DNA from: Kiritimatiellia bacterium
Lineage (GTDB): Bacteria; Verrucomicrobiota; Kiritimatiellia; CAIQIC01; Lenti-01
Reading direction: 5' to 3'
Assembly: GCA_017527155.1 (NCBI GenBank)
Contig: JAFXQI010000040.1
Span: 1-43,301 of the forward strand
Length of the DNA stretch: 43,301 nt
Positions 1,552-39,122 of this stretch are shown in pieces. Numbering within the stretch: position 1 is the first letter of the stretch; each line of letters begins with the position of its first letter. Under the pieces are notes generated by a model that searched no databases, had not been told where the DNA came from, and saw only the letters and a program-made list of their open reading frames with translations. The translations under genes were made by a program, and so were the position numbers.

Positions 1552-1587
1552 CTAGATCTCTAGACATCTAGATATCTAGGTATCTAG
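1552..1587. repeat. Five CTAG tetranucleotides at an exact 8-bp period
   Basis: CTAG occurs at 1552, 1560, 1568, 1576 and 1584, separated by ATCT, ACAT, ATAT and GTAT. Each CTAG contains TAG on both strands, and because 8 is not a multiple of 3 the array puts stop codons in all six frames. The last copy supplies the TAG stop of the minus-strand gene at 1584-1975. Restriction-like words (AGATCT, TCTAGA, GATATC, and GGATCC at 1592-1597) arise as a by-product. Confidence 0.9.
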
Positions 1588-1975
1588 GGGGGGATCCACT
1601 GGGCGGCGGGGAGTTTGTTGGTGGCCGTCTTGTCGGCCATGACTTCGTTCGCGGCGGTGTCGTCGAAGCGGGTGTAGTCGAGGGAGGCCAGGCGGTCGAG
1701 TTCGTTCGCCTTGATCTCCAACGTCAGGTGCGATTCGGCGGTGCTGCCGGGGGCGGTCTGGAGGACGGTGAGGTTCTGGACGCCGTCGAACTGCATCGTC
1801 AGGCGGCCGGTTTCGTCGAAGGACAGGGCGATGGTGCGGGTGTCGGCTTCCTGGTCGGACAGGGTGACGACGGGCGGGCGGGCGTTGTCGATGAGGTCCT
1901 TGGGCTCGTAGGATTCGGGGCCGATGCGGTGGGCGTAGACCTTGCGGAGGGGTGAAACGGGACCAGCGTGTTCAT
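1584..1975 (-). pseudogene. Small frameshifted gene of unknown function
   Basis: A convincingly protein-like frame runs from about 1945 to the TAG at 1584-1586 (VYAHRIGPESYEPKDLIDNA, then FDETGRLTMQFDG, ending KLPAAQWIPP), but it has no in-frame start codon until well inside. The ATG at 1973-1975, the last part of an ATG45 repeat element, opens another frame. Adding one C to the CCCC run at about 1948-1951 would join them into about 130 residues beginning MNTLVPFHP. So this is either a frameshifted gene, a sequencing error in a homopolymer, or a 3' gene fragment. The predicted protein is acidic and soluble-looking, with no signal peptide. No family is recognised. Confidence 0.5.
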
Positions 1976-2033
1976 GGAGGGGAGGATGGGGGAAAAACGG
2001 GAAAAACCCCAATGTTTCCCGTAATTGCAAAAC
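1970..2033 (-). repeat. ATG45 dispersed element, copy A
   Basis: On the minus strand this reads TTGCAATTACGGGAAAC, then a TTTTTCCC stretch, a C/T-rich run and ATGAACAC. The first G after TTAC is 45 nt from the A of the ATG. GGGAAAC and GTTTTTCCC can pair as a short stem. The ATG is the probable original start of the frameshifted gene downstream. Confidence 0.8.
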
Positions 2034-6050: not shown

Positions 6051-6115
6051 TTTTGCAACCACGTGAAACCCTCCGTTTTCCCCTTTTTTCCCCCCACCTC
6101 CCCGCCCATGAACAC
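6051..6115 (+). repeat. ATG45 dispersed element, copy B
   Basis: TTTTGCAACCACGTGAAAC is followed by GTTTTCCCC, a C-rich run and ATGAACAC, with 45 nt from the block G (6063) to the ATG (6108). The ATG is in frame with the TolC-like gene and would add 24 residues before its signal peptide. It lies between the divergent sensor-kinase gene and the efflux operon. Confidence 0.85.
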
Positions 6116-6179: not shown

Positions 6180-7658
6180 ATGCCCCGCACCCGCCATCCG
6201 TGCCCCCCGACCGCCGCCCTCGCCGCGGTCCTCCTCCTTTGCACCCTGGCGCTCCCCGCACCCTCCGCCGAGACCACGCCCGATCCCCCCGTTCCCCTCG
6301 TCCTCACCCTCGAAGACGCCATCGCCCGCGCCCTCGAACACAATCTCGGCCTCGCCCGCGGGGCGATCGACATCGAATCGCACGGCCTCGAAGCCGACCG
6401 CGCCGCCGAATCGGTGCGCGGCATGCGCATCACGCCCGCCGGAGCCGCCGAGACCGGACCCGACTCCTCCCTCTGGCGCGCCGGCCTGGGGACCTCCGCG
6501 ACGCTCCCGTGGGGTACGGTCGTGGGCGCCGAGGCCACCGCCTCGCAGGCCGATACCGACGGCGCCGACCCCGACCGGCGCACCCAGATCGCCCTCTCCG
6601 TGTCCCAGCCCCTATTCCGCCGCTTCGGCACCCTCGTGCGCGACGAACCCGCCGTACTCGCCTCCGAGGCCCTCCGCGCCGCCCGCCGCGCGTGGGAACG
6701 CGACCGCTCGGCGCTGGTCCTGCAGGTCGCCGAGTCGTGCGAATCGATTGCCTGCCTCGCCCGGCGTCTCGAATGCGACCAGGCGCAGGCCCTCCGCCTC
6801 GAACGCCTGGCCGCGCTCGCCGCCGTGCGCGAAAACCGCGGCGACGCCACCCGTACCGAGGTCCTGCGCCTCGACCTCCAGCGCGGCGAAGCCGAATCGC
6901 GCATCGAGACCGACCGCGCCGGGCTGGACATCGCGGAGGAGACCTTCGCCGACCTCCTCGGCCTGCCGCCCGGCACGCCCGTCGGCATCGTCCCCCCGCC
7001 CCCCCTCGAACTCGAAGACGTCCCCCCCGCCCGCGCCCTCGACGTCGCCCTCCGCTCCCGTCCCGACTACGCCCAGGCTCTCGACGACATCGCCACCGCC
7101 GACCGCCAGGCCCTCCTCGCCCGCCGCGCCCTCCTCCCCGACCTCGCCCTGGCCGCCCGCCACGTCACCTACGGCGACGCCTCCGACTGGTCCGGCGCCT
7201 CCCGTCTCGACGAAACCGACTGGCGCATCGGCCTCGAAGGCTCCATGAACCTCGACATCCGCGAGGCCCGCCTCTCCGCCCGCAAGGCCGCCACCGACGC
7301 CGCCGGACGCCGTACCGCCGCCGAAATCGTGCGCCGCCGCCTCGCCCTCGACGTCCATTCCGCCCAGACCGAGTGCCGCCGGGCCCGCCGCGAACGCGAC
7401 CTCGCCCGCCGCAATCTCGACCTCGCCGACCGCCGCGCCGAGCTCGCCCGCACCCTCTTCGAGGCCGGACGCGGCACCGCCGACGCCGTGTCCGACGCCG
7501 AAGCCGACGCCCTCTCCGCCCGGCTGCGCGACCTCGAAGCGCAGCGCGCCGCCTCCGTCGCCTCCTACCGCCTCCTCCACGTCCTCGGCACCCTCGTGCC
7601 CGCCCCCGGCGACCTCCTCGCCGACCTCCCCGACATCCCCCAGGAGCCCGCCCCATGA
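6180..7658 (+). CDS. TolC-family outer membrane efflux protein
   Basis: This 492-residue protein has a signal peptide (AALAAVLLLCTLALPAPSA). The mature part begins with LVLTLEDAIARALEHNLGL, the hallmark start of outer membrane factors, where TolC-type proteins trimerise into a beta-barrel with a long alpha-helical periplasmic tunnel. Two long Arg/Glu/Ala-rich coiled-coil repeats follow, the second ending FEAGRGTADAVSDAEADAL. I chose the ATG at 6180 because it directly precedes the signal peptide; the in-frame ATG of the repeat element at 6108 is the alternative. It is the first gene of an operon whose stop overlaps the adaptor start as ATGA. It should form the outer membrane exit duct for the adaptor and permease encoded next. 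Confidence 0.9.
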   Translation: MPRTRHPCPPTAALAAVLLLCTLALPAPSAETTPDPPVPLVLTLEDAIARALEHNLGLARGAIDIESHGLEADRAAESVRGMRITPAGAAETGPDSSLWRAGLGTSATLPWGTVVGAEATASQADTDGADPDRRTQIALSVSQPLFRRFGTLVRDEPAVLASEALRAARRAWERDRSALVLQVAESCESIACLARRLECDQAQALRLERLAALAAVRENRGDATRTEVLRLDLQRGEAESRIETDRAGLDIAEETFADLLGLPPGTPVGIVPPPPLELEDVPPARALDVALRSRPDYAQALDDIATADRQALLARRALLPDLALAARHVTYGDASDWSGASRLDETDWRIGLEGSMNLDIREARLSARKAATDAAGRRTAAEIVRRRLALDVHSAQTECRRARRERDLARRNLDLADRRAELARTLFEAGRGTADAVSDAEADALSARLRDLEAQRAASVASYRLLHVLGTLVPAPGDLLADLPDIPQEPAP

Positions 7659-10049: not shown

Positions 10050-10112
10050 TGCAATCACGAGAATCCCCTTGACATCCCCCACCCCATCCCCCACACTCCC
10101 CTTCCATGAACA
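10050..10112 (+). repeat. ATG45 dispersed element, copy C (divergent)
   Basis: TGCAATCACGAGAAT, a C-rich tract and ATGAACAT match the element, but the spacing is 47 nt rather than 45 and the hairpin is lost. It contains TTGACA (10069-10074). Its ATG is the start codon of the gene at 10106, the clearest case of the element providing a translation start. Confidence 0.65.
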
Positions 10113-10972
10113 TCCTGGAAACCGCCTCCTCCCGCACCACCCCCATCACCCGCGCCGCCCTCGACATCGCCGGCACCCAACACGCCGGCATCGCCCTCGG
10201 CCTCGTTCCCCTCGTCCTCGGCGTGAGCGTCGCCGCCTTCACCGTCTTCGCCGCCACCGAGACCGGCCTGGCGATCGTCCGCGAACTCAAGCGCCGCCAG
10301 CGCCTCCGCGAAAAACACCCCGACAGCCCGTCCCTCCGCGGCACCCCCACCCCCGCCGAACTCGCGGCCGACATCGGAATCCGGCCCCGCACCCTCCTCG
10401 TCCGTCTCCGTCTCGGCTCCCGTCTGGCGGACCTCGAACCCACGCTCGACACCACGACCCTCGGCTTCAAGAAACTCCGCAACGGCCAGAAGCGCATCCG
10501 CTCCCGCGCCCCCGGCATGAAAGGGTGGCTGGCGGACCGCCGCATTCCCGCCAACTACACCACCCTCGTCCGCTACAAGAAACTCGCCCAGCGCCTCCGC
10601 CAGCTCCTCGCCCTCGACGACCGCCTTCCGCTCGAATGGCTTCTCCCCGGCGAGGCGCCCGACCGCCCCCTTCCACCGGACCTGCTCGCCTCCTACGCCA
10701 CCGCCCGCCGCCGCCTTGCCCGCCTTCTCCGCGACCACTGGAACTTCACCCGCCTGAAAGCCCACGTCGAAACCAAACTGGGGCTCCCGCCGCTTCTCCC
10801 CTCCCGGCGGCCCCGCCGTCCCCGCGCCACGCCGCCGCACGACCGATCCGTGCAAGTCGACGCCACCAAACGCGAACTCATCCGCTTCCTCCGCGAGCCC
10901 CCGCCCACCCGCAAACTCGGTCGCCTGCGGGACCAAGCCCTCGCCTGGCTCCACGCCGCCCCAACCGACTGA
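10106..10972 (+). CDS. Uncharacterised single-pass membrane protein
   Basis: This encodes 288 residues with no recognised family. A hydrophobic segment at about 25-50 (HAGIALGLVPLVLGVSVAAF) is followed by a very basic soluble region. It includes ELAADIGIRPRTLLVRLRLG, which could be a helix-turn-helix-like segment, the lysine/arginine stretch FKKLRNGQKRIRSRAPGMKG, and RQLLALDDRLPLEWLLPGE. The high Arg and Pro content suggests nucleic-acid or membrane-surface contact, but that is only a guess. The ATG belongs to the repeat element just upstream, and no strong Shine-Dalgarno is present. It is transcribed toward the shikimate gene cluster and may be monocistronic. Confidence 0.7.
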   Translation: MNILETASSRTTPITRAALDIAGTQHAGIALGLVPLVLGVSVAAFTVFAATETGLAIVRELKRRQRLREKHPDSPSLRGTPTPAELAADIGIRPRTLLVRLRLGSRLADLEPTLDTTTLGFKKLRNGQKRIRSRAPGMKGWLADRRIPANYTTLVRYKKLAQRLRQLLALDDRLPLEWLLPGEAPDRPLPPDLLASYATARRRLARLLRDHWNFTRLKAHVETKLGLPPLLPSRRPRRPRATPPHDRSVQVDATKRELIRFLREPPPTRKLGRLRDQALAWLHAAPTD

Positions 10973-11177: not shown

Positions 11178-11239
11178 TTCATGGGAGGAGAGTGCAGGGG
11201 AAATGGGTGGTTTTCCGTGGATTTCACGTGATTGCAAAA
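11178..11239 (-). repeat. ATG45 dispersed element, copy D
   Basis: On the minus strand this reads TTTTGCAATCACGTGAAAT, a variable middle, CATTTCCCC, a C/T run and CCCATGAAG. The spacing from block to ATG is 45 nt. It lies downstream of the aroE-aroK stop on the same strand, so it is not a leader of a recognisable gene. The rest of the 10973-11277 gap shows no gene or hairpin that I can support. Confidence 0.75.
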
Positions 11240-15277: not shown

Positions 15278-15432
15278 TTTTCCAATGGTTGGAAAAAAAG
15301 TTTCCAATGGTTGGAAAAACCGGGCCGTTTTTTCCAATGATTGGAAAAAATTTTCGCCGGTTTTCCAATGATTGGAAAAAATTTTGAGGATTTTTCCAAT
15401 GATTGGAAAATTTTTTTCCAATGGTTGGAAAA
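15278..15432. repeat. Array of six TTTTCCAATSATTGGAAAA palindromes
   Basis: Six near-identical palindromes of 18-23 bp lie at 15278-15296, 15301-15318, 15328-15350, 15361-15379, 15392-15410 and 15414-15432. The centre base alternates G or A (ATGGTT or ATGATT). Spacers are only 3-12 bp and differ in sequence. The array ends 63 bp before the ATG of the XRE-cupin regulator. It is either an operator cluster for a dimeric DNA-binding protein or a local expansion of an intergenic palindrome of this lineage. The AT-rich palindromes stand out against the GC-rich genome. Confidence 0.9.
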
Positions 15433-15495: not shown

Positions 15496-16050
15496 ATGTC
15501 CACGCAACGCGAAGAGATTGCCGCCCGGCTCCGGGAACGGCGCGAACTGGAAAACGTCCCCGCCGAGGAAATCGCGGAGAAAATCATGATTCCGTACTCG
15601 GATTACCTGGAGTACGAGAGCGGCGCGAAGGACATTCCGGCCAGCGTGCTCCACAATGCGGCGCACGTGCTCGGCGCGGACTTGACGGAGCTGCTCACGG
15701 GGGAGGCGCCGCGGATGAAAATCTTCACGGTGACGCGCGCGGGGATGGGGGTCAAGGTGGAACGCCGGAGCGATTACAGGTACCTCAACCTGGCGACCAA
15801 TTTCATCGGCCGCAAGGCGGACGTCTTCGAGGTGACGGTTCCGCCCGAGACCGAAACCGAGGGCGCGCACGAGAACGCGCACCCCGGGCAGGAGTTCAAT
15901 TACCTCCTGGAGGGTTCGTTGCGCGTGAACATCCACGGCAACGAATTGATTCTCCGGCCGGGCGACTGCGTGTATTTCGACGCCACCCACCCGCACTCGA
16001 TGCAGGCGTTGGGCGGGAAGCCGGCCAGGTTTTTGGCGCTGATCATTTGA
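15496..16050 (+). CDS. XRE-family transcriptional regulator with C-terminal cupin
   Basis: This 184-residue protein has a helix-turn-helix domain at residues 1-70 (AARLRERRELENVPAEEIAE, then IPASVLHNAAHVLG) and a cupin_2 barrel at about 105-180 (HENAHPGQEFNYLLEGSLRV, RPGDCVYFDATHPHSMQALG). The cupin is a likely small-molecule sensor. GGAG precedes the ATG at 15496. The following gene encodes an AMP-forming acyl-CoA synthetase. A regulator of this type next to an acyl-CoA synthetase is a known arrangement in gut anaerobes, and suggests control by the ligase substrate or product. The palindrome array just upstream is the natural candidate operator. Confidence 0.92.
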   Translation: MSTQREEIAARLRERRELENVPAEEIAEKIMIPYSDYLEYESGAKDIPASVLHNAAHVLGADLTELLTGEAPRMKIFTVTRAGMGVKVERRSDYRYLNLATNFIGRKADVFEVTVPPETETEGAHENAHPGQEFNYLLEGSLRVNIHGNELILRPGDCVYFDATHPHSMQALGGKPARFLALII

Positions 16051-20132: not shown

Positions 20133-20195
20133 TTCATGGGGGGCGGCATGCGGAAATTCAGGTGGAATTCCATTGTTTTTCCGTAATTGCAAGAC
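20133..20195 (-). repeat. ATG45 dispersed element, copy E
   Basis: CTTGCAATTACGGAAAAAC, a middle containing GGAATTCC, then GAATTTCCG, a C run and CCCATGAAAAC. The spacing is exactly 45 nt. It lies about 60 bp upstream of the TPR lipoprotein start, on the same strand and before that gene's promoter. Confidence 0.8.
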
Positions 20196-24388: not shown

Positions 24389-24450
24389 GCGATATCAAGG
24401 AAAACGCGAGCATTTCCGCCGGTTCCATGCCATTCTCCCCCGCATGAACG
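24389..24450 (+). repeat. ATG45 dispersed element, copy I
   Basis: GCGATATCAAGGAAAAC, then CATTTCC, GGTTCCATGCC, a C run and GCATGAACGCAC. The spacing is exactly 45 nt. It lies upstream of the secreted-protein gene at 24586 but before that gene's promoter. Confidence 0.7.
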
Positions 24451-28709: not shown

Positions 28710-28773
28710 TGTTCATGCTGGAGAGGATGGGTAAAAACCATGGAAAACATCGATGTTTCCCGTAATTGCAAAC
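28710..28773 (-). repeat. ATG45 dispersed element, copy F
   Basis: GTTTGCAATTACGGGAAAC, then the perfect palindrome GGAAACATCGATGTTTCC within the block, GGTTTTTACCCATCC, and GCATGAACAC. The spacing is 45 nt. It lies downstream of the phosphatase gene on the same strand and converges on lpd. No gene follows its ATG. The rest of 28561-28866 shows no gene. Confidence 0.85.
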
Positions 28774-35278: not shown

Positions 35279-35340
35279 GCGAGATTATGGAAAACCGCCC
35301 TGTTTTCCCTGTTCCCGAGACATCGGATTGCCCATGAACG
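35279..35340 (+). repeat. ATG45 dispersed element, copy G
   Basis: GCGAGATTATGGAAAAC-CGCCCT-GTTTTCC gives a good stem-loop, followed by a variable segment and CCCATGAACGCAC. The spacing is exactly 45 nt. The plus strand downstream has only the converging hpf gene. Confidence 0.8.
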
Positions 35341-36701: not shown

Positions 36702-37198
36702 AAAAACTCCGATTGGTCCGATTCCCTCCGCTACCGCTCCGGGGCGCTCGGCCTTTCCGGAACCTGTCCTTGGCGAGCGGACGGACACTCCGGTTTTTCC
36801 GATCGAGTTGTCACGCAAAACCTTGTGTTTTTCCATGCGCAGGGATGGGTAGGGCGGGCAGTCCCTGCCCGCCGGCGCCAGAAATGCCGACAGAATGCGC
36901 CGGAGATGCGCGGACGCATGTTTCCCGTTCGTTCTGGCCGAATGGCATCCGCACATCCAACGTCATCCGATGGTCCGTTCCGGCAACCGGCGGCGAAGGG
37001 ACTCGCCGCCCTACCCGGCTTCGCACGAGAGCAAACACATGGGTTTGCCCGAGGGCTGGGCGCCACCTGGGACGCCCATGGTGCCGCACAGGAAATCGGA
37101 ACAATCGGAGTGTCCATCCGGGGCCGGGAAATCCTCTCCCGATTCCCCGCATCCCGGAGCGGTAGCGGAGGGAATCGGAAAAACCGGAGTTGGTTTCC
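36702..37198. repeat. About 500-bp imperfect palindrome with a nested R3 element
   Basis: The left arm (36702-36804: GATTCCCTCCGCTACCGCTC, later GGACACTCCGGTTTTTCCGA) is the approximate reverse complement of the right arm (37093-37198: GAGCGGTAGCGGAGGGAATC, AATCGGAGTGTCCATCCGG). The centre, 36805 to about 37050, is an R3 element whose own ends are inverted: GAGTTGTCA near GGGTAGGGCGGGCAGTCCC on the left, GGGACTCGCCGCCCTACCC and AAACACATGGGTTTGC on the right. There is no plausible gene inside. It occupies most of the gap between lptB and the MFS pair. Confidence 0.8.
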
Positions 37199-38730: not shown

Positions 38731-38790
38731 GCGAGATTATGGAAAATCGTCGCTTTTTCTCCGTTTTCACCCATTCCGTCCCCCCATGGG
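38731..38790 (+). repeat. ATG45 dispersed element, copy H, abutting R3
   Basis: GCGAGATTATGGAAAATCG, CTTTTTCTCCG, GTTTTCACCCATTCC, a C run and ATG at 38786-38788. The spacing is exactly 45 nt. The usual AAC after the ATG is replaced by GGAGTTGCC, which is the left end of the R3 element, so R3 appears to have joined or inserted exactly at the ATG. Confidence 0.8.
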
Positions 38791-39045
38791 AGTTGCCAGA
38801 CGAAAAACTTGCGATTCCCCGTGTGAAAGGACGGGTAGGGCGGGCAGTCCCTGCCCGCCGGAGCATGGAATGCCGGAGGGACGCATCGGCGAAGCGCGGA
38901 CGCCTGTTTTCCCTTTGCCGCGGCCGGATGGCCTCCGCACATCCCGAGATCTCCGCTTTCACGTCCCGGCTTCCGGCGGCGAAGGGACTCGCCGCCCCAC
39001 CCGGCTTCGCGCGGGCGAAAACACATGGTTTTCGCCTGACAACTC
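38790..39045. mobile_element. R3 MITE-like element, copy 2
   Basis: This 256-bp block has imperfect terminal inverted repeats of about 70 bp. Left: GAGTTGCCAGACGAAAAAC ... GGGTAGGGCGGGCAGTCCC. Right, read inward from the minus strand: GAGTTGTCAGGCGAAAACC ... GGGTGGGGCGGCGAGTCCC. The interior matches the R3 copy at 36805-37050 (CGGACGC.TGTTT.CC...ATGGC.TCCGCACATCC). It has no open frame for a transposase. A non-autonomous element is the best guess; target-site duplications were not found. Confidence 0.6.
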
Positions 39046-39122
39046 CATCGGAACAAACCGCCCGCCCCGCCCTGGTAGGCCCACCTCCATCTCGATTTAA
39101 CTCTCTCGTCCACAGTAGAATC

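Follow-up and report, generated by a model that had tools for sequence, protein, structure and literature searches.

Leaderless promoters and mRNAs are known, for example in mycobacteria (PMC4633059), and E. coli has mRNAs with a 5'-terminal upstream AUG (5'-uAUG; PMC4965119). The element described here, nine copies of which lie in a stretch of 43,301 nt (the window) of a Kiritimatiellia genome of 3.23 Mb, shares features with both. As in leaderless promoters, a -10-like hexamer stands ~7 nt ahead of an ATG that is the predicted +1, an arrangement seen in the genes of a protein family that the element opens. Unlike those promoters, the element adds a constrained 19-bp block at -57..-40, found in several subtypes, and phased T-tracts, and hundreds of its copies have an ATG that opens no conserved ORF. 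As in 5'-uAUG mRNAs, the predicted transcript of a solitary copy (one that opens no family gene) consists of a 5' AUG, a leader and the real start, but here the AUG sits in repeated DNA of fixed geometry, in several hundred copies. The periodic A/T promoter of Campylobacter jejuni RpoD, going by the outline in PMC3656092 (citing Petersen et al. 2003), also has phased A/T tracts upstream of the -10 and a weak -35; measured against that outline, the element differs in its fixed block, its fixed ATG, its GC-rich genome and its restriction to a subset of promoters. Finally, REPIN/RAYT systems (PMC3116915) resemble it in comprising hundreds of short intergenic elements of few flavours, each flavour tied to a gene. 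However, the element is not a hairpin doublet (17 copies yield no consensus pair) and no mobility was seen; no search identified the associated protein as a Y1 transposase, and it has ~70 paralogs, as against the single genes of RAYTs. We found no described element of this kind in the Verrucomicrobia/Kiritimatiellae literature.

We measured the distance from the G of GCAA, GAGA or GATA in the block to the A of the ATG. It is 53 nt in eight of the nine window copies and 55 nt in the copy at 10050, equivalent to the 45 and 47 nt that an earlier note, made from the sequence alone, had counted from the later G of ACGG. All nine copies listed in that note are present, and a genome-wide model search returned no further ones in the window (Table 1). 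When the exact block TTGCAATYACGNGAAA was searched alone, the genome gave 13 matches and the reversed control none; all 13 are followed by an ATG at 53-55 nt, nearly always as CCATGAA. Using a PWM built from the block alone, with strong blocks defined by a score of at least 24, we found an ATG at 52-55 nt behind 77 of the 84 strong blocks in the sampled stretches (1.24 Mb of 3.23 Mb), compared with 1.6 on average for other intervals of that width; on reversed sequence the PWM picked up one block, with no ATG. The fixed distance between block and ATG is far beyond chance. The constant length claimed earlier stood in 59 of the 84 strong blocks, at exactly 53 nt, and is not absolute, since the overall spread is 52-55. 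The spacing therefore held genome-wide and no Rfam family was matched, two points on which the earlier note had been prepared to give up its proposal.

Table 1. Element copies, family genes and neighbouring repeats. Positions without a locus prefix are those of the window.
Feature	Position	Strand	Description
Solitary element	1970..2033	-	Block subtype GCAATTACGGGAAA; ATG at 1975, not in frame with the coding fragment that follows
Element	6051..6115	+	Block GCAACCACGTGAAA; ATG at 6108, in frame with an ORF ending at 7658
Gene-associated element, 55-nt form	10050..10112	+	Block GCAATCACGAGAATC; -35 TTGACA, N17, -10 CACACT
Family member	10106..10972	+	288 aa; hydrophobic N-terminal segment and basic helical domain
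Solitary element	11178..11239	-	Block GCAATCACGTGAAA; ATG at 11182, followed by no gene; convergent context
Solitary element	20133..20195	-	Block GCAATTACGGAAAA; ATG at 20137
Solitary element	24389..24450	+	Block GATATCAAGGAAAA; ATG at 24444
Solitary element	28710..28773	-	Block GCAATTACGGGAAA; ATG at 28716; between two convergent gene ends
Solitary element	35279..35340	+	Block GAGATTATGGAAAA; ATG at 35334
Solitary element	38731..38790	+	Block GAGATTATGGAAAA; ATG at 38786, where an unrelated dispersed repeat of 270 bp adjoins
Family gene with internal inverted block	L078:3079	+	
Family gene with internal inverted block	L078:9993	+	
Family gene with internal inverted block	L078:18831	+	
Family gene with internal inverted block	L094:3374	+	
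Family gene with internal inverted block	L086:3285	-	
TTTTCCAATSATTGGAAAA array	L077:19873-19975		
TTTTCCAATSATTGGAAAA array	L084:16635-16790		
TTTTCCAATSATTGGAAAA array	L091:5562-5664		

With a model built from the sequences of 17 copies alone, we recovered at least 150 copies in the source genome and at least 150 in RUG11196 (G001), the same-genus MAG used for comparison, which we take to be a rumen genome from the RUG series. Other genera, among relatives that include Verrucomicrobia and Kiritimatiellae MAGs, gave weak, scattered matches alone. We counted 142 elements in 1.24 Mb, which would scale to ~370 for a whole genome. The same genus has both the element and the close protein family. 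In a 65% complete genome of the sister genus (G002), the block motif occurs with no accompanying ATG, and no family protein was detected. ATG-less relatives of the GAGATTAYGGAAAA block are found at L085:715(+) and L095:8553(-) and at the G002 loci L062, L067 and L069, and perhaps represent an ancestral binding motif. One locus, L093 (-), holds four tandem copies of an element-bearing unit of ~285 bp, with ATGs at 15754, 16038, 16317 and 16602.

Within the window, the ATG at 10106 is the true start of the family gene, as had been proposed. The ATG at 6108, put forward as a plausible start, is indeed in frame, but coding may begin at 6180, in which case the upstream ATG would give a possible N-terminal extension of 24 residues. 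The same proposal for the ATG at 1975 fails on its reading frame. The coding fragment at 1584-2012(-) (..KVYAHRIGPESYEPKDL..), which has the 1970 element at its 5' edge, contains no in-frame ATG near its 5' end and reflects a truncation, a frameshift or an assembly error. An earlier internal ATG is additionally present in the 20133 and 24389 copies.

Column profiles anchored on the ATG were drawn from 55 family-gene copies and 124 solitary copies, all chosen for having an ATG; the evidence for the ATG that is free of this selection is the TTGCAATYACGNGAAA search and the block-only PWM. The two profiles agree, with the same phased tracts, -10-like bases and start context. Specifically, the 19-bp block spans -57..-40 and includes an A-tract at -43..-40, T-tracts follow at -31..-29 and -21..-18, and these A/T tracts are spaced by ~10-11 bp around a variable -35 zone. 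A-12, T-11 and T-8 form a -10-like CATnnT at -13..-8, and C-2 and C-1 precede ATGAA (CC-ATG-AA). Gene copies alone add TTG at -36..-34, and the -35 is weak in solitary copies (T-36 0.34, G-34 0.45). The block of most family genes continues as TTGAC/TTGCAT-N17/18-CATnCT-N7-ATG, mostly with N17, a -35/-10 pair that places the ATG at the predicted +1. The position and AT-richness of the block fit a putative site at -60..-38 for the alpha-CTD, as in a UP element, or for a cognate activator. A sigma54 -24/-12 reading of TTGCA was rejected, since by eye most copies lack a GG at the right distance. Start codons across the source genome are generally preceded by CC, and [TC]AnnnT is enriched 5-8 nt ahead of them (14% vs 2-3%), indicating that leaderless genes probably exist there.

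Genome-wide, the element has a promoter-like architecture, precise spacing and high abundance, and it supplies the start codon, and the region ahead of it, for the genes of a protein family of ~70 members. This link is the key fact that was missing from the earlier note, whose interpretation is otherwise partly supported. Twelve of the 15 long-frame genes that we examined behind an element ATG, including 10106-10972, encode this one family. Searches with tblastn gave 75 matches in the source genome (some of them fragments), 46 in RUG11196, and ten distant ones in a third genus (G003); another 53 genomes from the order and class had none. Comparison of the proteins with Pfam, NCBIfam, PHROG, PADLOC and PDB sequence profiles returned nothing significant. 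An AlphaFold model (pLDDT 81) gave no significant structural match (Foldseek best E 1.1 in pdb and 0.36 in viral; VIA best Z 3.9), which is not evidence of a new fold. The block scores above threshold at its fixed place in 55 of the 61 family genes examined; four of the remaining six have divergent blocks at the same place, and in two the script had misassigned the start. Block subtypes track protein clades, GATATCAAGGAAAA going with MKTEPxFPPGYLK, GGAAACAGGAAAAA with MNNKVKYALREAAG and GAGATTCCAGAAAA with MNTHLSNVLDNTG, a pairing that is not telling by itself because linkage predicts it. The 14-mers of family-gene promoters are, letter for letter, among the commonest solitary blocks: GATATCAAGGAAAA occurs in 26 solitary and three gene copies, and GGAAACAGGAAAAA in nine and two. 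The distant G003 homologs have ordinary leaders and no block. A matching block also lies, inverted, within the 3' coding region of family genes, ~750-790 nt after the ATG, clearly so in two clades only (Table 1); because it also encodes a conserved peptide (NPLISQ/FSGISQ), any role of it as DNA is inseparable from coding.

At close to an even chance, we favor reading the element as a leaderless (5'-AUG) promoter/operator module of fixed geometry that the paralogs probably control. Because it also serves as the promoter of the ~70-member family, it has the look of a large gene-control system not described before. In such a module, the block would occupy the place of a UP element or class II activator site, and the predicted RNA would begin at the ATG itself, as a leaderless 5'-AUG transcript. 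Family proteins would bind blocks of their own subtype and, when bound, would regulate their own gene as well as solitary copies. A solitary copy would thus serve as an upstream second promoter, with a transcript that opens with AUG and continues across a leader into the real gene, whose start typically lies 56-90 nt downstream, often with a sigma70-type promoter of its own. The interior may be variable because helically phased contacts and the start alone would matter. Two suggestions of the earlier note bear on this reading. A protein-binding unit is plausible, because the paralogous family genes carry the same block subtypes; a translated 5' leader is in line with the anatomy, and falls short in that the frame after solitary ATGs is not conserved.

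In a comparison set of 149 elements, with genes called by a custom script, one is intragenic and 23 stand at the start of a family gene, leaving 125 solitary copies. By neighbor context, 49 are co-directional with both neighbors, 14 run against both, 31 are divergent and 21 convergent. On the same strand, distances from stop codon to block cluster at 34-52 nt, and the nearest downstream start is at least 56 nt away, with a cluster at 56-90. Many downstream genes have by eye their own sigma70-type, often leaderless, promoter 20-45 nt past the element ATG. Stop codons ahead of the next gene are not enriched after solitary ATGs (33% vs 49% expected), and the idea that a 5' uORF is coupled to the gene downstream was rejected on this ground. 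Several of these results count against the promoter/operator module: the weak -35 of solitary copies, the orientation of those of the 125 that are convergent (21) or run against both neighbors (14), the unkept solitary frame, the G002 block without ATG or protein, and the G003 homologs without block.

Genes of RUG11196 are 92-97% identical to those of the source genome. The element is kept at all seven sites with both flanks collinear, and no empty site was found. Between ortholog pairs, CCATGAA changed at one of 49 positions and the first T-tract at none of 21, and the interior changed by 12-14%, compared with 2.8% in flanks that include coding DNA. The 24389 copy, for instance, retains its block, -10 and ATG in RUG11196, with an interior that has diverged without indel, and at 20133 the two genomes share the element and the gene downstream of it, with entirely different sequence upstream. 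At one conserved site the block subtype has switched, being GCAATCACGTGAAA in one genome and GGAAACAGGAAAAA in the other, with the rest recognizably the same. Single-base indels within 20 nt of the ATG alter the frame in three of eight solitary ortholog pairs (37 vs 317, 7 vs 377 and 31 vs 275 codons), indicating that there is no conserved peptide; the strict conservation of solitary ATGs is not explained by a peptide, because the frame behind them is not kept. The window genes are spread over ~11 RUG11196 contigs in blocks of 2-3 kb, and the breakpoints of this shuffling are intergenic, in some cases coinciding exactly with an element's left edge.

These comparisons also bear on a REPIN/MITE-like non-autonomous mobile element, in which the 5' end of a family gene, from block to start codon, was spread by the family protein or a transposase and the ATG is the right end. 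We consider this unlikely, though it accounts for the high copy number, the intergenic placement and the block subtypes held in common with the gene family, for blastn similarity among copies that covers about -62..+7 and then stops, for a few pairs with related interiors, and for the one copy (38731) that adjoins another repeat exactly at its ATG. However, every collinear site is occupied, target-site duplications show no clear excess, the constraint pattern is unlike that of decaying copies, and mean interior identity among copies equals that of shuffled columns (0.391 vs 0.391), with a small excess of related pairs. None of the four Y1_Tnp matches, three of them above cut-off, has a block within ~1.5 kb. 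Recent transposition was rejected on the absence of empty sites and of clear duplications and on the mostly unrelated interiors, and with it the tiny mobile cassette of the earlier note, as a recently mobile unit.

Alternatively, the element could be a pure protein-binding or chromosome-organizing site, where family proteins on the phased A/T tracts would anchor or insulate DNA and the ATG would be a contact instead of a start. The ~10-11-bp phasing, the way copies fill gaps between gene ends and promoters, convergent regions included, the hydrophobic N-termini of the family proteins and the unconserved frame after solitary ATGs all suit such a site. We nevertheless judge it improbable: CC-ATG-AA is exactly the genome's start-codon context, and family genes begin with it, behind a good -35/-10; none of this would be required of a site made for binding. 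Far weaker is the idea that the solitary ATG opens a short translated ORF whose product matters. It has in its favor that the ATG and its ATGAA context are the most constrained part of the element, and we regard it as very improbable since the encoded peptides share no common features, one-nucleotide indels shift the frame between orthologs and stops are not enriched ahead of the next gene; a sequence-specific small peptide is largely refuted by the dissimilar peptides and unconserved frames. Equally remote is a structured RNA, another suggestion of the earlier note, or an intrinsic terminator formed by GGAAAAC...GTTTTCC, to which the palindromic form of some copies (GGGAAACATCGATGTTTTCC at 28710) and the many copies 34-52 nt past a stop codon lend some color, but the GAAAAC/GTTTTCC stem described earlier shows no covariation, the consensus fold of 17 copies has neither a pair nor compensatory changes, Rfam is silent, many copies lie in divergent regions and the right arm is missing in gene copies.

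Returning to the promoter/operator module, we tentatively extend it to a genus-specific regulatory system without a described counterpart, made up of ~70 possibly membrane-anchored DNA-binding paralogs, a clade-wise block code and several hundred operator-promoter-start-AUG modules, although we think this whole picture more probably wrong than right. If it is true, the block switch at a conserved site (GCAATCACGTGAAA/GGAAACAGGAAAAA) would rewire a gene that stays in place. In this one small genome, intergenic sites numbering several hundred share one architecture and are tied to a 70-member family absent from the libraries. Should the proteins indeed read the blocks, the paralogous regulators and their operators would form a code of unusual size for so small a bacterial genome, and would offer a natural experiment in the diversification of DNA-binding specificity. 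If RNA starts at the solitary ATGs, the role of a 5'-terminal AUG could be tested on hundreds of natural copies.

Other repeats lie nearby. Between 37.6 and 41.9 kb the window has no gene called by the custom script. Tandem palindrome arrays of TTTTCCAATSATTGGAAAA, with spacings of ~21 and 31 bp, are intergenic at 15296-15432 of the window and in many places of the genome (examples in Table 1), and are a separate intergenic repeat family, unrelated to the block. Both genomes also contain many copies of a dispersed 270-bp repeat (GGAGTTGTCAGGCGAAAACCTTGCGAT...), which in the window occurs at 36805-37046 and at 38785-39054, one copy beginning exactly at the ATG of the 38731 element.
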